A stretch of 64,000 nucleotides of DNA from the NCBI GenBank assembly GCA_025057115.1, contig JANWWZ010000007.1, positions 1 through 64,000 on the forward strand, in the 5' to 3' direction. Made by a program: the position numbers and the translations under genes. The DNA is from Bernardetiaceae bacterium. Lineage in GTDB: Bacteria; Bacteroidota; Bacteroidia; Cytophagales; Thermoflexibacteraceae. Shown one piece after another: positions 3,701 to 32,894 of this stretch. The notes beneath the pieces were generated by a model. That model was not told the origin of the DNA and ran no database searches. It worked only from the letters and a program-made list of their open reading frames with translations. The first letter of the stretch is position 1. Every line of letters begins with the position of its first letter.

Positions 3701-6700
3701 CTAATACTTTGCCCTGATGAAGCAGTAGAGCAGTGGCAATTGTTTGGACGTGCAGTAGGATTGAAATCTTGGCGCTCGCTGACCAACTCAGGCGAAACGA
3801 TTCGCCTGGTGGATATGGATGGAAAAACTATCGATTCAGTACAGTACAGCAGTTCATGGTACCGCGACCCTAAAAAGCGAAATGGTGGATGGTCACTGGA
3901 GCGGATTTCACTAAAAGAAGTTTCTTGCACGCCCTTTGAAAATTGGCATGAGTCTATCCATCAACGCGGGGGAACTCCTGGCAAGCCTAATTCAGTCTTA
4001 AACAATCCTCCTGACAAAACACCGCCTAAGATTGCCACAGTAACTATTCTGTCTAACCGACTTTTGCAAGTTCGTTTAACCAAGGCAGTGGAACGTTCAG
4101 TGCTGGCTCGTCTTGCTAATTACCAGTTGATGGGCGCTAGCCCTGCTCGCGTGCAACATGCAACGCCTCTAGACACGCTCAATGTAAGGCTACAACTTGC
4201 CAGTGCGTTAGATAGCGGCAAGCAATATCGGCTCATTATCAACCATTTAGCTGATTGCTTTGGCAATGCCGCTGCTGATACTTTCTCTTTGGGAATTGGC
4301 AGGTACCCCAAAAAGGGGGATCTCCGCATCAGCGAAATTATGGCTAATCCTAACGCCCCAGCAGGTAGCACTACCTTAGTCAATTATGGCGAGTACGTGG
4401 AAATTACTAACCTAACTCCCGATTTGATTCAACTTCAATTTCTCAAGCTAGGATACGAAAATCGATTCTTCTCCCTACCTGCTCGAATCATCGCTCCTTA
4501 TGAAGTGCTCGTGCTGACTTCTACTGCTCGGGCGACCAATTTTGGCAGTAGAGGAATAGGTATTGTAGGTTTTCCTGCATTGGCTGACGGCGGTGCTCTT
4601 CTTACCTTAACTGATACAGCGGAAATAGAAATTGATGCAGTGCGCTACTCTTCCACTTGGTACGGTGATCGGGAGAAACAACGCGGAGGCTGGAGCTTAG
4701 AAATAATTGACTTACACAACTTTTGCGCGGAAGAGCAAAATTGGCGCGCTTCTTTGCACGCCAGTGGAGGCACTCCTGGTGCACCTAATTCTGTTCGCGG
4801 TACTATCCAAGATGAAATTCCTCCTCGCGTAACAGGGGTTGCCTTACAAAACCAGCGCGAAGTGCTCCTTTCTTTTTCCGAGCCAATTTCGTTAGAAACT
4901 TTGCTACAACCTAGCGCCTATGCATTCACACAAGGAATTCGAGTAGCACAGGTAAAGCCTATCCACCGTCGGCAAGTGCGCTTGCTGCTTGAGCAATCCC
5001 TTGACCCTGCTCTCCCCTATCGCTTGCAAATTAGCGGACTGCGCGACTGTGCCGGCAACTTGATAACGCCATCTGTCCATCAATTGGGCATCGGAAGAAA
5101 TCCGCGCCCCAAGGATCTGCTTATTACTGAAATTTTAGCTGACGAAACGCCCAAGGTGGGCTTGCCAGCAGCAGAATTTATAGAAATTTTTAATAACTCT
5201 GACGATTTAATCAACCTACAAAATGTCTATTTGGCTGACGAAAATACAACAGTGCCCTTGCCTGGAGCTGTATTACTACCTCGGCAATACGCCGTGCTAT
5301 GCGCCCCTTCGCGCGTGGATAGTTTTCTATTGCACCGCCCTGCTCCTCAACGCGTAATAGGGGTAGTAGGATTTCCTTCCCTTAGCAATGCGGGAGAACG
5401 GTTGAGACTTTTTATTGGAAATCTGATCCTACACCAGGTGCACTATAGCATTGAATGGTACCGCGACCTTGCAAAGCGCAACGGCGGTTGGAGTTTGGAA
5501 ATGATTGATACGGAAAACTTTTGCAGCGAAATGGACAACTGGACCGCTTCCATGGACCCTCAAGGAGGCACTCCTGGTCAACCCAACTCCGTTGCCGCTC
5601 CTAATCCCGATAAAACTTCCCCAGAGCTAACTCGCCTTCAATTAGAAGGCAGCCGCTTAACCCTTACTTTTAGTGAGAAAATGGATAGCACTACCCTTGT
5701 TACCTTGCAACACTATCGCATCAAACCCGAAATTGCTATCCGCCAGTTAGTATTGCATACTGACCGCGTTTTGACTGTAGAGTTAGCTGAGTCTCCTCAG
5801 GCAGGGCAATTGTATGAATTAGAATTGAGTCCAAACTTAAAAGACTGTGCAGGCAATTCTTTAGGAGAGAGCAGCTTGCGGGTACTTTTTGGAGTGGGGC
5901 GCTCACCTGAGCGATACGAATTGCTCATTAGCGAAATTATGGCAGATCCCGCTCCCTCTGTAGGCTTGCCTGAACGCGAATATATCGAACTTTACAATGC
6001 TACAGGCGATCTCCTTACCTTAAATGGCATCGTCCTTATAAAACCAGAAACGGGAACTACTGTGCACCTGCCTTCGCTGGTAATGCCAGCACAAAGCTAC
6101 TTAGTACTGGCAAGTAGTAGTGCAATGGGGGAGATTGCTGCAGCCTCTCCTTGGGCAAGAGTAGTGGGTCTAGCTGGCTTTCCCTCTCTTTCCAACACTG
6201 GTGAAACCTTGGAAATCAGGCATTTGGGAAAATTAATTCACTCGGTAAGCTATAGGGTCGAATGGCACCAGCCCCATAAGCGCAATGGCGGATGGAGCCT
6301 AGAGATGATAGACCTTAACCAACCTTGCCAACAGGCTACTAACTGGACTTCTTCCAATGACCAACGTGGGGGAACTCCTGGTAAGCCCAACAGTGTACAC
6401 GGTCCTAACCCCGACCTTGAGCCGCCTAAGATTGTAGAAATCAGTTTATTGAACTCAAGGACTTTGCGCCTTGTGTTAAACGAGCCCATGGATAGCGCCA
6501 GCCTTGTCCAGTCAGAAAACTACCACTTTTCCGCTGGCTTGCTTGTGGATTCCCTGCAAGTGGTAGGAGTTTCTACAGTGGTGATAAAACTGTTGGAGCC
6601 AGTGGTACGTGGCAAACCTTATCAGTTGAAAATCAAAGGATTAAAAGACTGCTCTGGCAATTTAATTCAACCAATCGAGCCCTTTTTTGGCCTAGGCATC

Positions 6701-8341
6701 CCTCCCAACAAATTTGAATTACTCATTAGTGAACTGATGGCAGATCCTTCTCCTGTGGTAGGGTTGCCCGAATCAGAATACGTAGAAATTTTCAATGCCA
6801 GCGATAAAGTTATTAGTCTTAAAGGAGTGACCCTGAGCAATAGCAATGGCACGAGAGGCATTTTGCCCGAAGTAAATCTATTGCCGCGTACCTATGCCTT
6901 AATTTGCCCGACTTCCGCAGCAACTGTATTCCGAAGCATTTTACCTACCAATAGCGCGATAGTATCTCCCCATCGCTGGGCAGCTTTAGATAACACTTCT
7001 GATGTGGTACAATTGCGCAATGCAGAAGGGTTGCTATTGCACCAAGTAGCTTACCGCGCTGCATGGATAAGCCATCCTAGCAAGCGCGAAGGTGGGTGGA
7101 GTTTAGAAATGCGCAACCTGAACAATCCATGTGCTGGCAGGGACAACTGGGAAGCCTCTGAACATCCTAACGGTGGGACTCCTGCTGCACCTAATAGCTT
7201 CAGCAGCACTTTACTTGACCAACACCCTCCTCAACTGCAGCGCGTAGAAACAGCTGATGGTCAACAAGTGCGCATTGTGTTAAATGAATGGATTGACAGC
7301 CTTGCTGCAACGCAAGCAAGTTATTTGGTCAATGGACAAAAAGCCAGCAAAGTGCTTTTCAGCTACAGCCGACCTAATGAAGTTCTCGTCATTTTGCCTT
7401 ATCCGCTAAAACCTGGGGAGAAAGCAACCCTACAAGTGCTTCACCTGCGCGATTGCGTTGGAAATACCCTGTTTCGCTCTCCCATTTTCCACTTGGTAGC
7501 ACCTCAAGAAGCAGCCGCGGGTGATGTTATTATTAATGAAATTTTGTTTAACCCACCGCCAACGGGAGTAGATTTTGTAGAACTTTACAACAAATCAGAC
7601 AAGTATATTAACCTTCAGAATTGGCGCATCGCTAACGCAACCACCGAGAGACTCATCAGCCAAGAAGTGCTCATCATGCCTCCTCAAACGTATCTAGTCC
7701 TTACTCCTGATGTAGCCAAACTCAAACAACAATACAGCCGTGCTATTGATTCTCTGTTGCATCAAGTCAATTTGCCTTCCTTTAACGATAAAGAAGGCAC
7801 TGTGCGGTTGCTCAACGCACAAGGAATGCTAATAGACCGGTTAGAATATAGCCAGGGTTGGCATTTTGCTTTATTGGAGCGAAAAGAAGGAGTTTCCCTA
7901 GAGCGCATTTCATTCCACGCTCCTACGCAAGAGCGGAACAATTGGCACTCTGCAGCCGCTCCCTTTTATGGAACACCTACTTATTTAAATTCTCAGTCTG
8001 AAAAGCAAAGCCCACTTGTGTCTATCAGTGAATGTTTTAGAATTGAAAATCAAGTATTTACTCCCGATGGCGACGGCTTCCAAGACCTCATGCTACTCCA
8101 CCTAGACTGTGCTGCAACTGGTAGCGTAGCCACAGTGCGCATTTTTGACTCCACTGGCAGGCTTGTTCGCACCTTGCTTAACCAGCAAACCATTGCTGCT
8201 GGCATGTTTTTGGCTTGGGATGGCATTACTGAAGAAGGTAGCAAAGCCCGCTTAGGTCCCTACATTGTAGCAATAGAACTTTTCGACTTACAAGGAAACC
8301 TAAAACGGGAATACTTAAAAGTAGTAGTGGGAGCGTTTTAG
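761..8341 (+). CDS. Very large exported repeat protein with Ig-like (SbsA-type) modules, six lamin-tail-domain (LTD)-like units and a FlgD-Ig-like C-terminus
   Basis: 2526 aa. N-terminal signal sequence. Repeated 'TEILADPxPxVGLPxxEFIEIFNNS...GGWSLEMID...NW.AS....GGTPGxPNSV' units. C-terminus 'FTPDGDGFQD...VRIFDSTGRLVRTL...WDGITEEGSKARLGPYIV' is FlgD/CHU-like. Confidence 0.88.
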   Translation: MALQLHVTSFIVAILSILSACPANGQVFFSDNFNSYTSGNPSAVWNTTTVNPPSGTPPFFSAPVLSGTNRVLRSNGPTSGSGTRRIYASTPCSISNLNSQAVEWRFEFWYNVAWNSTNVNADNHARVFLTSDVANIDGNLNGYHLRLLENIQLWRNTPTSATNLNLSGGTLTDLSTLPQPIQVQVIRLPGGRWLVFVNGMYQGSAVDNSYTSSQFFGFHYRYSAATRNTAFQVDNVLVQRYENTVPTTVVAANGANARQIRIRFNELMDIAALRQSAVFSISGVPAWQVLPAEDEFSVYVNFPFDFVAGNNYLLQCQHLTDIFGNVSASIPDFNFNFNDILPPKVLQLNVVAPQSLDVLFDEPVELTSATTLANYSWNSEQPRAAVRDATNTALVHLLFNNHFPENSNQTLSIVAVKDLQSNAMLPTSAIFHRDTRAPTVNDLTGWRFLSATQIEITFSEPVEPITAELVNNYSLSNGIGFPLQVERNPTMPHKVVLTFAQPIPANVPLTLRITGVRDLAGNAMSTNNITVRYDPDAPEWTQLIQRADNVIELQFNEAVNPATVVTAHFQLTNITDNQIIPIISASLCPINSAIVYLTTVTSLPNDKNFSLQVQNITDLGNNSMPAQSRSFNTIAPKVGEAFILGKNAIEIRFTEAVQPVSALNAANYTLSGVSNVPTINLISPEKVRLVYSIPMEQGQTYRLTVHNIADLNGNLMPSTTISLHFGTYVEEVFLRTSKLLEVIFSEEMPIAEVQNENRYFINGDPARKPVSAVRNTQNPTVVTLLFSDDFVENQTYKLTLGGFATTCRRYVPQSEHEFVLDRRPPQIVSVRVLSPLQVAVEFNKSLDRATAEAVNHYEISHGIGRPRKATLRGKIVELELSSRLLGNISYTLTARNVQDVLRNTMPVTAVSFQRPAQPRYGELIFTEILADPTPAVGLPSTEFVEIFNNSTQSFELTGISFADESGSTLLGEGTIAPGEYLILCPDEAVEQWQLFGRAVGLKSWRSLTNSGETIRLVDMDGKTIDSVQYSSSWYRDPKKRNGGWSLERISLKEVSCTPFENWHESIHQRGGTPGKPNSVLNNPPDKTPPKIATVTILSNRLLQVRLTKAVERSVLARLANYQLMGASPARVQHATPLDTLNVRLQLASALDSGKQYRLIINHLADCFGNAAADTFSLGIGRYPKKGDLRISEIMANPNAPAGSTTLVNYGEYVEITNLTPDLIQLQFLKLGYENRFFSLPARIIAPYEVLVLTSTARATNFGSRGIGIVGFPALADGGALLTLTDTAEIEIDAVRYSSTWYGDREKQRGGWSLEIIDLHNFCAEEQNWRASLHASGGTPGAPNSVRGTIQDEIPPRVTGVALQNQREVLLSFSEPISLETLLQPSAYAFTQGIRVAQVKPIHRRQVRLLLEQSLDPALPYRLQISGLRDCAGNLITPSVHQLGIGRNPRPKDLLITEILADETPKVGLPAAEFIEIFNNSDDLINLQNVYLADENTTVPLPGAVLLPRQYAVLCAPSRVDSFLLHRPAPQRVIGVVGFPSLSNAGERLRLFIGNLILHQVHYSIEWYRDLAKRNGGWSLEMIDTENFCSEMDNWTASMDPQGGTPGQPNSVAAPNPDKTSPELTRLQLEGSRLTLTFSEKMDSTTLVTLQHYRIKPEIAIRQLVLHTDRVLTVELAESPQAGQLYELELSPNLKDCAGNSLGESSLRVLFGVGRSPERYELLISEIMADPAPSVGLPEREYIELYNATGDLLTLNGIVLIKPETGTTVHLPSLVMPAQSYLVLASSSAMGEIAAASPWARVVGLAGFPSLSNTGETLEIRHLGKLIHSVSYRVEWHQPHKRNGGWSLEMIDLNQPCQQATNWTSSNDQRGGTPGKPNSVHGPNPDLEPPKIVEISLLNSRTLRLVLNEPMDSASLVQSENYHFSAGLLVDSLQVVGVSTVVIKLLEPVVRGKPYQLKIKGLKDCSGNLIQPIEPFFGLGIPPNKFELLISELMADPSPVVGLPESEYVEIFNASDKVISLKGVTLSNSNGTRGILPEVNLLPRTYALICPTSAATVFRSILPTNSAIVSPHRWAALDNTSDVVQLRNAEGLLLHQVAYRAAWISHPSKREGGWSLEMRNLNNPCAGRDNWEASEHPNGGTPAAPNSFSSTLLDQHPPQLQRVETADGQQVRIVLNEWIDSLAATQASYLVNGQKASKVLFSYSRPNEVLVILPYPLKPGEKATLQVLHLRDCVGNTLFRSPIFHLVAPQEAAAGDVIINEILFNPPPTGVDFVELYNKSDKYINLQNWRIANATTERLISQEVLIMPPQTYLVLTPDVAKLKQQYSRAIDSLLHQVNLPSFNDKEGTVRLLNAQGMLIDRLEYSQGWHFALLERKEGVSLERISFHAPTQERNNWHSAAAPFYGTPTYLNSQSEKQSPLVSISECFRIENQVFTPDGDGFQDLMLLHLDCAATGSVATVRIFDSTGRLVRTLLNQQTIAAGMFLAWDGITEEGSKARLGPYIVAIELFDLQGNLKREYLKVVVGAF
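3521..7999 (+). repeat. Six tandem LTD + Ig-like coding repeats, period about 800 bp
   Basis: LTD starts (x-IxEI) read at about 3521, 4321, 5117, 5921, 6719 and 7523; successive spacings 800, 796, 804, 798, 804 bp. Confidence 0.85.
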
Positions 8342-27859: not shown

Positions 27860-30343
27860 TCATGCGGAGAAATAGATTCGCTTGACGCGCTCGCCAATGC
27901 TAGTGAGAACTTCGTAAGGAATGGTGCCAAGTTGCTGGGCAATAGTTTTTAAACTATTAGCATCGCAAAAAACGATAGCTTCGTCTCCTTCCTGCGCCTG
28001 GGGAATATGGGTTACATCTGCCATGCACATATCCATGCAAATCCGTCCTACGGTAGGGGCTTTTTTGCCATGAATCCAGAAAAATCCTTTGCCGTTGCCC
28101 AGTGCCCGTCGGTAGCCGTCAGCATATCCAATAGCTAACACGGCAATCCGAGAGGGCTTGTCAATAGGATGGCTTCTTCCATAACCTATCGTAGCCCCTT
28201 GAGGCAAAGTTTTAATTTGCGAAATGATGGTTTTCAAGGCAGCAACGGGCTGAAGGTGGTTTTCTTCTTTGCCAGTGGCGGCAATGCCATACAAGCCAAT
28301 GCCTAGCCTAACCATGTCGTAATGGGCTTGAGGAAATTTTACAATGCCTGCCGAATTAAGAGCATATTTCAGAGGTCGGCTGCCGTAAGCGCTGGCAATT
28401 TGCTCAAAAATATTATCAAAAAGTTGTAACTGATGACGAGAAAATTCATCATGCTGCGCTTCATCCGCTGCAGAGAGATGAGTAAACACACCTGCAATGT
28501 TTATTTTTTCTTTGTTTTGGCGGATTATTTCGCATAGAGTTTCAACTTCTGCTGGCAAAAAACCCAGCCGGTGCATGCCTGTATCAATTTCCAGATGAAT
28601 GGGAGGCAATTGGCCTGTACAAGCGGCAAACTTGATCCACTGCTGCAGCAGCCTAAAACTGTATATTTCTGGCTCCAACTGATAGCTTTGTAACAAAGCA
28701 AAACTCTCTGGCATGGGATTCATCACCATAATAGGCAAGTAAATGCCATGCCGCCGCAAGAAAACGCCTTCATCTGCATAAGCTACCGCCAGGTAATGAC
28801 AACCTTTTTGCTGCAAGTATTGAGCAATTTCGTAATGACCATTCCCATAAGCAAAGGCTTTTACCATAACCATTATTTTAACCTTGGGCTCAAGTAAACT
28901 TTTGTAATATCCCAAGTTGTGCCCAATGGCATCTAGATTGATTTCCAGGCGCGTGCCGTGAATTTTTTCTTCCAAACGCGCTACCACTTGTTCAAAGCCA
29001 AAGGCTCGCGCACCTTTGACTAAAATGTTTTCCTCCACAAAATTTATTGCTGCTTGGTCAATGGCAGCGATCAGATCTTTTGTCTGCTCAAAATGCGCTA
29101 CTGTCAAAGGAGTAGAAAAATTAGACGGCAAGAGCCGCTCCCATTGATTGCCCACTAGCAGCAATCGGTTAATATCGAATTGTTTGACAAGATTTTCTAC
29201 TTCTTTGCAAATCATTTCATCAGTCAAACCGCTTTGCAACATGTCAGAAAGGATGAGGGTGCGCGGCTGAGTGGGATTTCCATAAAGGGCAAGAAATTCT
29301 AAAGCAATGCGCAAGCCCGTCAAATCATTGTTGTAACTATCGTCAATGAGGGTGCATCGATGAATGCCTTTTTTGCGCACCAATCGCATAGCAGGTTGTA
29401 CTTGCCAAGGCCGTGAAAAAACTTTGTTCACTGCATGGCGGATGTAGTCCAGCTCACCTAACAAATACCACATCGCTACTATGCAGTGGACGAGGTTTTC
29501 TATACAAGCCGAGTCGGCAAATGGCAGGGAAAGAGTCAAACTTTCTTTGCCAAAGTTGAGGCTAATGGTTGCACTTTGTCCCGCTTTCTCAACAATTTTA
29601 AATTTAATTGTACTTTGGTCGCTTTCCCCCCACCCTATTAGCTGACAATGAGGATATTTTTCCTGCCAAGGCAACACTTCTTGACAAATTTCTTGGTAAG
29701 CAGTGTGAAAGATCAATGCCTTAGCTGTAGTGAACAGCTTCAGTTTTTCTCTTACTTTTTCTTTTGGCGAACTAAAACCTTCGTCGTGAGCCTTGCCAAG
29801 ATTGGTAAAAATACCAATGGTAGGGCTCATTACATTGGCCAGAAGGTGCATTTCGCCTTTTTGAGAAATATCCGCTTCGAAAATGGCTAAGTTATGGACA
29901 TGATTCATTTCCCAGACCGAAAGAGCTACTCCTAGCTGAGAATTGTAACTCTTGGGACTTTTGACAATGTTAAATTTTTCTGCCAGTAGTTCTGATAGCC
30001 ACTCCTTGACGATCGTTTTGCCATTGCTGCCCGTGATGCCTATCACGGGATAATTAAAACAATGTCGGTGCAGGCGCGCTAGCTGTTGCAGGGAAGCAAG
30101 GGTATCTTCAGCAACTAGAAAAGTTCCTTCTAAGCTTTCTGGCACAGAACGGACTAGGAAAAAACGCACTCCCTTTTTGTGTGCTTCTTCTATAAAGTGG
30201 TGTCCGTCAGTGTGTTTTCCTTTTAAAGCTACGAAAATGCTCTCTGAAGCGTTTTGCGAGTGAATATTTCGGCTATCTATTTGCAATTTTTTTGAGCAAG
30301 CAAGTTGATAAAAAAAATCTACCCGGCGTAAAATGCGCTGCAT
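27860..30343 (-). CDS. murF-alr: Bifunctional UDP-N-acetylmuramoyl-tripeptide:D-Ala-D-Ala ligase / alanine racemase fusion
   Basis: MurF part: 'VIGITGSNGKTIVKEWLSELL', 'IDDSYNNDLTGLRIALEFL'. Alr part: 'VKIMVMVKAFAYGNGHYEIAQYL', 'EIDTGMHRLGF', 'VRLGIGLYGIAATG', 'AVLAIGYADGYRRALGNG'. Confidence 0.94.
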   Translation of the reverse strand: MQRILRRVDFFYQLACSKKLQIDSRNIHSQNASESIFVALKGKHTDGHHFIEEAHKKGVRFFLVRSVPESLEGTFLVAEDTLASLQQLARLHRHCFNYPVIGITGSNGKTIVKEWLSELLAEKFNIVKSPKSYNSQLGVALSVWEMNHVHNLAIFEADISQKGEMHLLANVMSPTIGIFTNLGKAHDEGFSSPKEKVREKLKLFTTAKALIFHTAYQEICQEVLPWQEKYPHCQLIGWGESDQSTIKFKIVEKAGQSATISLNFGKESLTLSLPFADSACIENLVHCIVAMWYLLGELDYIRHAVNKVFSRPWQVQPAMRLVRKKGIHRCTLIDDSYNNDLTGLRIALEFLALYGNPTQPRTLILSDMLQSGLTDEMICKEVENLVKQFDINRLLLVGNQWERLLPSNFSTPLTVAHFEQTKDLIAAIDQAAINFVEENILVKGARAFGFEQVVARLEEKIHGTRLEINLDAIGHNLGYYKSLLEPKVKIMVMVKAFAYGNGHYEIAQYLQQKGCHYLAVAYADEGVFLRRHGIYLPIMVMNPMPESFALLQSYQLEPEIYSFRLLQQWIKFAACTGQLPPIHLEIDTGMHRLGFLPAEVETLCEIIRQNKEKINIAGVFTHLSAADEAQHDEFSRHQLQLFDNIFEQIASAYGSRPLKYALNSAGIVKFPQAHYDMVRLGIGLYGIAATGKEENHLQPVAALKTIISQIKTLPQGATIGYGRSHPIDKPSRIAVLAIGYADGYRRALGNGKGFFWIHGKKAPTVGRICMDMCMADVTHIPQAQEGDEAIVFCDANSLKTIAQQLGTIPYEVLTSIGERVKRIYFSA

Positions 30344-30381
30344 AAGTAATTCTACCTAGTCAAATTGAGTAAATTCAACGA

Positions 30382-30412
30382 TTTACAAGCATGAAATGAG
30401 GATATATTTTTG
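30382..30412 (+). promoter_or_regulatory. Bacteroidota-type promoter: TTTA-N19-TATTTTTG
   Basis: TTTA at 30382-30385, 19-nt spacer, TATTTTTG at 30405-30412, matching the -33 TTTG / -7 TAnnTTTG consensus except one base. Confidence 0.5.
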
Positions 30413-30417
30413 TATCG

Positions 30418-30520
30418 GAATCAGTCGAGATGACGCCAAATGGCTTTAAGATAATTAATAAGGGGTAAATTTAACAACGCTGGAACAGTCGCGCTAATTT
30501 TTGGTGCGACTGTTTTTTTT
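30418..30520 (+). ncRNA. Candidate ~100-nt small transcript (sRNA or leader/attenuator)
   Basis: Intergenic, promoter-like box upstream (30382-30412), strong intrinsic terminator at the 3' end; no CDS of appreciable length. TSS position is an estimate. Confidence 0.45.
30484..30520 (+). terminator. Rho-independent terminator
   Basis: AACAGTCGC (30484-30492) pairs perfectly with GCGACTGTT (30506-30514), the stem extends inward with wobbles, followed by T-tract. Confidence 0.8.
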
Positions 30521-30579
30521 ATGCCCTCTTCAGAAGCCAGTTTTTTGGCTTAGGGGACTTTTTTCCGCTGTTGCAATAT

Positions 30580-30587
30580 TATATTTG
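30580..30587 (+). promoter_or_regulatory. -7 box TATATTTG upstream of acn
   Basis: Exact TAnnTTTG, 30 nt before the acn ATG; no convincing -33 at the preferred spacing. Confidence 0.45.
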
Positions 30588-30617: not shown

Positions 30618-32894
30618 ATGGCGTTTGATATAGACATGATTCGGGCTGTCTATGCGCGTATGGGTCAGCGCATAGCAGCAGCAAGAAAGGTCTTGGGCAG
30701 ACCTATGACCTTAAGCGAAAAGATACTCTACGCTCATTTGCACAAAGACCAGCCTTTGGCAGTATTTAAGCGTGGAGTGGACTACGTGGACTTTGCGCCT
30801 GACCGAGTTGCCATGCAAGATGCAACAGCTCAAATGGCGTTGCTACAATTTATGTCAGCAGGGATTCCTAAAGTAGCCGTTCCCACTACCGTGCACTGCG
30901 ACCATCTCATTTTAGCTAAAGTAGGGGCAAAGGAAGACCTCAAAGCTGCGCAACATACCAATAAGGAAGTATATGATTTCCTCAGTTCTGTTTCTAATAA
31001 ATACGGCATCGGATTTTGGAAACCAGGGGCGGGTATTATCCACCAAGTAATTTTGGAAAACTACGCCTTTCCTGGCGGCATGATGATTGGCACCGATAGC
31101 CACACCCCCAATGCTGGCGGTCTGGGAATGATTGCCATCGGTGTGGGAGGAGCAGATGCAGTAGATGTAATGGCGGGCATGGCTTGGGAACTGAAAATGC
31201 CAAAGCTCATTGGCGTCAAGCTCACCGGTAGAATGAGTGGATGGACTTCTGCCAAAGATGTCATTTTAAAAGTAGCAGGTATTTTAACCGTTTCTGGTGG
31301 AACAGACGCTATCATAGAATACTTTGGCCAAGGAGCAGATACTATCTCTGCCACTGGCAAAGGTACCATTTGCAACATGGGAGCAGAAGTAGGAGCTACC
31401 ACCTCCATCTTCGGCTACGACCGCCATATGTACGACTACTTGGTAGCCACCGGTAGGAAAGACGTAGCCGACCTAGCTGAACAGTATAAAGAACACTTGC
31501 GCTCCGATGAAGAAGTGTACGCCAACCCCGAAAAATACTACGATCAACTTATTGAAATCAACCTCAGTGAACTAGAACCTCATATTAACGGTCCTTACAC
31601 GCCAGATCTAGCATGGCCCCTGTCCAAATTTGCCGAAGCAGTGCGCCAAAAAGGCTATCCCGCCAAGTTAGAAGTGGGTTTAATTGGCTCCTGCACGAAC
31701 TCTTCTTATGAAGACCTTACCCGTGCTGCCTCTGTTGCTCGCCAAGCAGTAGAGAAAAAGCTCAAGGCAAAGGCTGAGTTCACCATTACTCCTGGCTCCG
31801 AACAAGTGCGCTACACAGCAGAACGCGATGGCATTTTGGAAGTGTTTGATAAAATTGGAGGAGTAGTCCTTGCCAATGCTTGCGGTCCTTGCATTGGTCA
31901 ATGGGCGCGGCATGTGAATGATCCCAATAAACCTAATTCTATCATCACTTCCTTCAACCGCAACTTTGCCAAGCGCAACGATGGACTTTCTTCTACTCAT
32001 GCCTTTGTTGCTTCCCCTGAAATTGTAACAGCATTTGCCATTGCTGGAGACTTGACTTTCAATCCCATGAAGGACAAGCTCATCAACGAAGACGGCGAAG
32101 AAGTAATGCTAGAAGAACCACAAGGACTTACTTTCCCGCCTAAAGGCTATGCCGTAGAAGATCCAGGCTATCAGGCTCCTGCAGAGGACGGCAGCCAAGT
32201 AGAGGTAATTATCGATCCCAATTCTGAACGGTTGCAACGACTTGAACCTTTCAAACCATGGGAAGGCACTGATCTTCTGGGATTGAAATTGCTCATTAAA
32301 GTAAAAGGCAAATGCACTACTGACCATATCTCTATGGCAGGTCCCTGGCTGCGCTATCGCGGACATTTGGACAATATTTCTAACAACTTGCTCATAGGAG
32401 CGGTAAATGCGTTTAATGGGCAAACTAATTGCGTCAAAAATCAACTCACTGGTCAATACGGTCCAGTACCTGCTACTCAGCGGGCTTACAAGGCCGCTGG
32501 CATAGGAACCGTAGTAGTAGGGGATGAAAATTACGGCGAAGGCTCCAGCCGTGAGCATGCTGCTATGGAACCGCGTCACTTAGGAGTGCGCGCTATTTTA
32601 GCTAAATCTTTTGCCCGCATCCACGAAACTAACCTCAAAAAACAAGGCATGTTAGCCCTTACCTTTGTCAATAAAGAAGATTACGACAGGATTCAAGAAG
32701 ATGATACAATAGATATTCTCGGGCTTACTGAATTTGCTCCAGGTAAACCGCTTACCCTCCGCCTGACTCATGCCGATGGATCCGTGGAAGAGTTTCCAGT
32801 AAAGCACTCTTACAATCAGCAACAAATTGAGTGGTTCAAGGCGGGCTCTGCCCTTAACCTGATTGCCTCGAAAATGCACGCAAAAGCTAATTGA
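30618..32894 (+). CDS. acn: Aconitate hydratase
   Basis: '[11 protein letters not shown]', '[30 protein letters not shown]', '[13 protein letters not shown]', 'ACGPCIGQW', '[19 protein letters not shown]'. Confidence 0.96.

Follow-up and report, generated by a model that had tools for sequence, protein, structure and literature searches.

A predicted small RNA family of Thermoflexibacteraceae (Cytophagales) with its own promoter, a covarying terminator and candidate start-codon targets

Most of what is known about regulatory RNAs of Bacteroidota comes from gut Bacteroides, and the bacteria of this phylum mostly work without Shine-Dalgarno pairing. The genes of RsmY and RsmZ carry a dyad upstream activating site (GacA) at a set distance from the promoter, and these RNAs titrate a protein via GGA motifs. 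The FopS / GibS family of Bacteroides thetaiotaomicron comprises 14 paralogues with their own promoters, which pair with envelope-related mRNAs at their start codons and block translation; FopS is about 65-70 nt long, has its seed at the 5' end and associates with RbpB (PMC11697453). In Listeria the multi-copy sRNAs LhrC1-5 repress an envelope protein, and the upstream region of their promoters is required for induction by a two-component system (PMC4132741). Bacteroides-1, Bacteroidales-1, Flavo-1 and 6S-Flavo are structured noncoding RNAs of the same phylum as the locus described here (PMC2864571). By the way they work, FopS/GibS and LhrC are, on analogy, the nearest known systems. No paper was found on sRNAs of the bacterial family Thermoflexibacteraceae.

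The locus lies in the window (the whole stretch of 64,000 nucleotides that was analysed) between murF-alr (27860-30343, minus strand) and acn (30618-32894, plus strand), whose identities are confirmed by Pfam and whose divergence, as first claimed, agrees with the coordinates; the arrangement is kept in three other species of the genus. A bounded plus-strand transcript of about 104 nt, separate from acn, is predicted at 30417-30520, its 5' end being estimated from the position of the -7 box with a margin of a few nt. The near-consensus Bacteroidota promoter described in an earlier note made from the sequence, TTTA (30382-30385) followed by N19 and the -7 box TATTTTTG (30405-30412, plus strand; consensus TAnnTTTG, present in nearly all copies of the family introduced below), agrees in both sequence and coordinates. 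The TTTA belongs to a weak -33-like element TTTACA (30382-30387, plus strand), of which TTTAC is kept in the genus and in whose position several copies of other genera have CTTAT. On the other side the transcript is bounded by an intrinsic terminator (30482-30520, plus strand). The earlier note had recognised it as strong and had described its 9-bp core, formed by AACAGTCGC (30484-30492) and GCGACTGTT (30506-30514); the full stem has 16 pairs (30482-30516), the longest among 12 terminator-like sites between 27000 and 34000, and the T-tract reaches 30520. The 104-nt transcript folds better than 200 of 200 dinucleotide shuffles (z -3.5). A second hairpin (CCCTCTTCAGAAGCCAGTTTTTTGGCTTAGGGG, then T6), not conserved in congeners, is noticed 3' of the terminator in the window (30521-30572).

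Promoter, core and terminator are kept at the same locus in all four species of the genus (4/4) within diverging flanks, and comparison of the four species gives a common invariant block of 27 nt, TTAAGATAATTAATAAGGGGTAAATTT; the stretch from the terminator to acn is not conserved among congeners. The earlier note had made its reading depend on conservation of the hairpin and the promoter in close relatives, and both are conserved there. Covariation was analysed in 10 copies from three genera, where 11 of the 13 terminator pairs have changes on both sides and the alignment is 96% paired, against at most 47% in slid controls. Because the promoter, core and terminator are conserved in four species and the terminator covaries across three genera, this is more than chance. 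Taken with the copies at unrelated loci in other genera, conservation and covariation support the reading of an independent sRNA of about 100 nt that was first proposed, and from these sequence features the element at 30417-30520 is almost certainly such an RNA.

Two other readings of the same stretch can be judged from the relatives. The element lies on the acn strand and upstream of acn in this genus, so a premature-termination leader (attenuator) of acn had been offered as the alternative; it is very improbable, since homologues in other genera are nowhere near acn, linkage to it being found within the genus only, and since a conserved -7 box belonging to acn itself follows the terminator. 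That box, outside the sRNA at 30580-30587 on the plus strand, was correctly placed from the start: it reads TATATTTG, and three congeners retain it in the form TATCTTTG. Moreover, no conserved anti-terminator was seen. A leader peptide or small protein of 12 codons, which the ATG at 30430 would permit, deserves hardly any credence: the window does contain the open reading frame, but none of the three congeners keeps its ATG and UAA stops fall within the invariant core, so the peptide role fails and no conserved ORF is found.

The RNA is not confined to this locus. BLAST of the bacterial family first gave related copies in two other genera, from ten copies the covariance model R2 was built, and flank reading together with a scan for the upstream motif added a few more; covariance model searches, pattern scans and flank reading give 29 copies in total. 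The model matches 30443-30520 of the window with an E value of 1.9e-12, the window sequence being itself part of the model. There is one copy per species in the window's genus (4 species), three in G007 (second genus) and, in the third genus, four in G009 (Thermoflexibacter ruber DSM 9560), eight in G011 and at least 10 in G010, a MAG of 62% completeness whose copies include two clusters. The copies of other genera sit at unrelated loci. Four of the seven genera of the bacterial family appear to be without the sRNA, and a covariance model search of 292 genomes of the order gave no match outside the bacterial family. Weak model matches at L075, L076, L087 and L088 were rejected as false positives, having neither core nor upstream dyad; matches to the 18-mer with one mismatch outside the bacterial family were about as numerous as in the reversed control and were likewise dismissed, without promoter or terminator.

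Two subfamilies can be distinguished, differing mainly by one G: subfamily I has the core TTAATAAGGGGTAAATTT and subfamily II ATTAAGGGGGTAAAT, the latter being confined to the third genus, where one copy has a further variant. Rfam 15 was searched, as had been suggested, and no family matched at gathering scores, 6S RNA included; Bacteroides-1, Bacteroidales-1, Flavo-1 and 6S-Flavo, from which the present RNA thus differs, were absent among matches to E 10 at the window locus. The initial impression that this is not a known RNA family was therefore borne out. By sequence criteria this is a previously undescribed sRNA family of the gliding bacteria Thermoflexibacteraceae (Cytophagales), dispersed and often multi-copy, represented by a single copy in the window's genome.

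The number of copies, their clustering in G010 and hairpin-like insertions in some of them bring to mind a dispersed mobile or repetitive element with promoter and terminator and with no regulatory role, the more so as another paralogous sRNA family of Bacteroides adjoins transposases and invertases (PMC11697453). Such an element is nevertheless quite improbable: in the window's genus the copy is single and syntenic, the terminator covaries, the promoter spacing is fixed and no shared mobility gene was seen beside the copies.

GC-rich hairpin insertions (such as CGGGCGGCGAACCGC) are placed between core and terminator or between the upstream site and the -7 box in some copies (L098 ~10091, L106 ~6502, L111 ~6663, L330 ~1052), and they are perhaps a REP-like element entering sRNA genes. 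A subfamily I copy is syntenic in three genomes of the Thermoflexibacter group (L103, L107, L110), downstream of a putative gldJ (gliding lipoprotein), a name given on the N-terminus alone. The copy on G007 contig C171 (L109 ~6649-6730) has a broken terminator and, about 320 bp beyond its own upstream site, a second match to that site (38857 vs 38536); the region is possibly a decayed tandem copy beside a TPR protein gene.

The promoter is present in 28 of the 29 copies; in the 29th, on G011 contig C223, the upstream region is missing. The motif CTACYTA-N6-TTGAG, or a close variant, stands upstream of nearly all copies, and its upstream half frequently completes a dyad T[GA]AGTA-N4-TACT[TC]A. 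In the window the putative activating site (30343-30371, plus strand) consists of the dyad TAAGTA (30343-30348) / TACCTA (30353-30358) and the half-site TTGAGTA (30365-30371). In 26/28 copies the first base of the CTAC is 53 bp upstream of the -7 box; in one copy the distance is 52 bp and in another, carrying an insertion, 68. Despite this constant spacing, the distance from the -7 box to the core ranges from 43 to 93 between copies. The window's genome has a single exact occurrence of the motif, at the sRNA locus. A dyad at fixed spacing is the layout expected of an activator site and, together with the conserved -7 box, gives the family its own promoter in silico. The arrangement resembles that of RsmY/RsmZ, whose genes likewise have an upstream activating dyad at a constant distance, although in the present family the site is closer to the promoter and the RNA seems to act by pairing with mRNAs.

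All copies have in common a core of the AAGGGG(G)UAAAU type. In subfamily I it is 18 nt long and identical in 11 of 11 copies; in the window it occupies 30455-30472 (plus strand), complements conserved target sites and includes the seed GGGGTAAATT (30462-30471, plus strand). Some hairpin is possible just 5' of the core in most copies (in the window GCC-AAAT-GGC, 30435-30444, plus strand), and these predicted hairpins differ in sequence between most copies. The seed lies inside the RNA, its distance to the predicted 5' end being about 35-80 nt across copies; its predicted accessibility is 0.09-0.85 between copies, for which the 3' ends are approximate, and 0.72-0.80 within the window's genus, where better-defined ends were used. 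Pairing with the 16S anti-Shine-Dalgarno was rejected by reasoning, as AAGGGG(G)U needs G-U and all copies have G where the Shine-Dalgarno consensus has A.

Like FopS / GibS, the family belongs to Bacteroidota, is multi-copy, has its own promoters and is predicted to pair at start codons (PMC11697453). In contrast to FopS, the RNA is about 100-130 nt long (about 104 nt in the window), contains a seed flanked by a 5' hairpin and the terminator, has a dedicated upstream dyad and belongs to another clade. By the features tested, seed position and length, it is not a FopS member, being set apart by the description of FopS. The likeness to LhrC1-5 consists in multiple copies, a promoter upstream region and predicted repression of an envelope gene; the LhrC1-5 motifs are C-rich (UCCC), whereas the G-rich seed of the present family is predicted to pair with ACCCC (PMC4132741).

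Occurrences of AATTTACCCC, the complement of the seed GGGGUAAAUU, were listed across the bacterial family. Within the genus the gene of a secreted TPR protein that contains a caspase domain (PF00656) has the seed complement immediately upstream of its ATG, as AATTTACCCCT-ATG in G001 and G002, TTTTACCCCT-ATG in G003 and AAATTTACTCCTT-ATG in the window's own genome; the site is kept in four congeners, two of which carry variants. In the window's genome 15 of 15 positions pair with the core, one of them as G-U; the duplex predicted there spans the AUG and has an energy of -21.2 kcal/mol, with 0/100 shuffles as low. An unbiased scan of that genome for complements of the 15-mer gave, besides the RNA's own locus, this start as the best site, and the only other site with one mismatch was the start of a small membrane protein of 73 aa, whose G002 orthologue also carries it. 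G001, G002 and G003 share a third conserved site between ftsL and ftsI, about 95-120 nt upstream of ftsI. In Thermoflexibacter two species have a site 7 nt ahead of a TPR-GAF-SpoIIE protein, and the N-terminal parts of the two proteins share 65% identity. The target sites form conserved islands within diverged leaders.

With a start-codon window of 12 nt and an ORF limit of 60 aa, both picked after the first matches had appeared, AATTTACCCC lies at most 12 nt from an ATG start at 7/56 sites of sRNA-bearing genomes vs 0/54 in sRNA-less sister genera (one-sided Fisher p 0.007, orthologous sites being entered separately and so not independent, and the site lists being partial for some genomes); an ORF limit of 80 aa gives 5/56 vs 0/54 (p 0.03). 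The sequence exceeds its reversed control in sRNA-less genomes as well. Between site loci of G005 and G006, both of an sRNA-less genus, no conserved leader site was seen, their sole related pair being a distant protein match (25-29% identity), and the g6 homologues of the TPR-caspase gene are without a good site. Counted genome-wide, the looser motif TTTACCCC was no more frequent in the neighbourhood of ATGs than the control, and the regulon is therefore probably small, unless targeting follows rules of another kind. Conserved seed and conserved complementary mRNA sites are thus both found, with few targets that were partly chosen post hoc.

These sites bear on whether the RNA acts on mRNAs or on a protein. 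An independent sRNA might act mainly by protein titration, as a decoy of the CsrB/RsmZ kind with the core as a protein-binding motif; an 18-nt core is longer and more invariant than a typical seed, and many copies in some genomes would suit a decoy. There is, however, a single motif per molecule, and titration does not predict complements of the core conserved at start codons of sRNA-bearing genomes, which makes it an unlikely main function. A trans-acting base-pairing sRNA repressing the predicted targets is the likely reading.

On this base-pairing reading, drawn in silico from conservation, the family, covariation, promoter architecture and conserved complementary sites, a DNA-binding activator would occupy the dyad, whose centre is about 50-60 bp upstream of the start, and turn on the -7-box promoter with its weak -33 element, and the RNA would end at its own terminator. 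The core GGGGUAAAUU with its flanks would then pair with AAUUUACCCC in mRNA leaders, over or beside the start codon, and so block translation initiation. Predicted targets are the secreted TPR-caspase-like protein, the ~73-aa membrane protein and the ftsL-ftsI junction in the genus, and the TPR-GAF-SpoIIE phosphatase in Thermoflexibacter; the conserved core thus matches conserved sites where envelope, signalling and cell-division genes begin, and the RNA probably switches these genes off. More tentatively, one activator may drive from 1 to at least 10 copies in a clade-specific regulon, in which the RNA would coordinate ftsL-ftsI division, the secreted caspase-like protease and the SpoIIE-type phosphatase via a short ACCCC leader code.

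The upstream dyad, the multi-copy family and the target sites go beyond the earlier account of the locus. This would be a new Cytophagales sRNA family, defined by sequence, structure and promoter and with concrete testable targets. A G-rich seed over start codons illustrates how translation could be blocked in a phylum mostly without Shine-Dalgarno pairing, and sister genera whose copy numbers range from 1 to at least 10 are a ready-made system for studying what makes sRNA genes multiply. As a further observation, a short-chain dehydrogenase/epimerase-like gene (L299, G000:C85:44599) has AATTTACCCC 9 nt upstream of its ATG and is a possible additional target.
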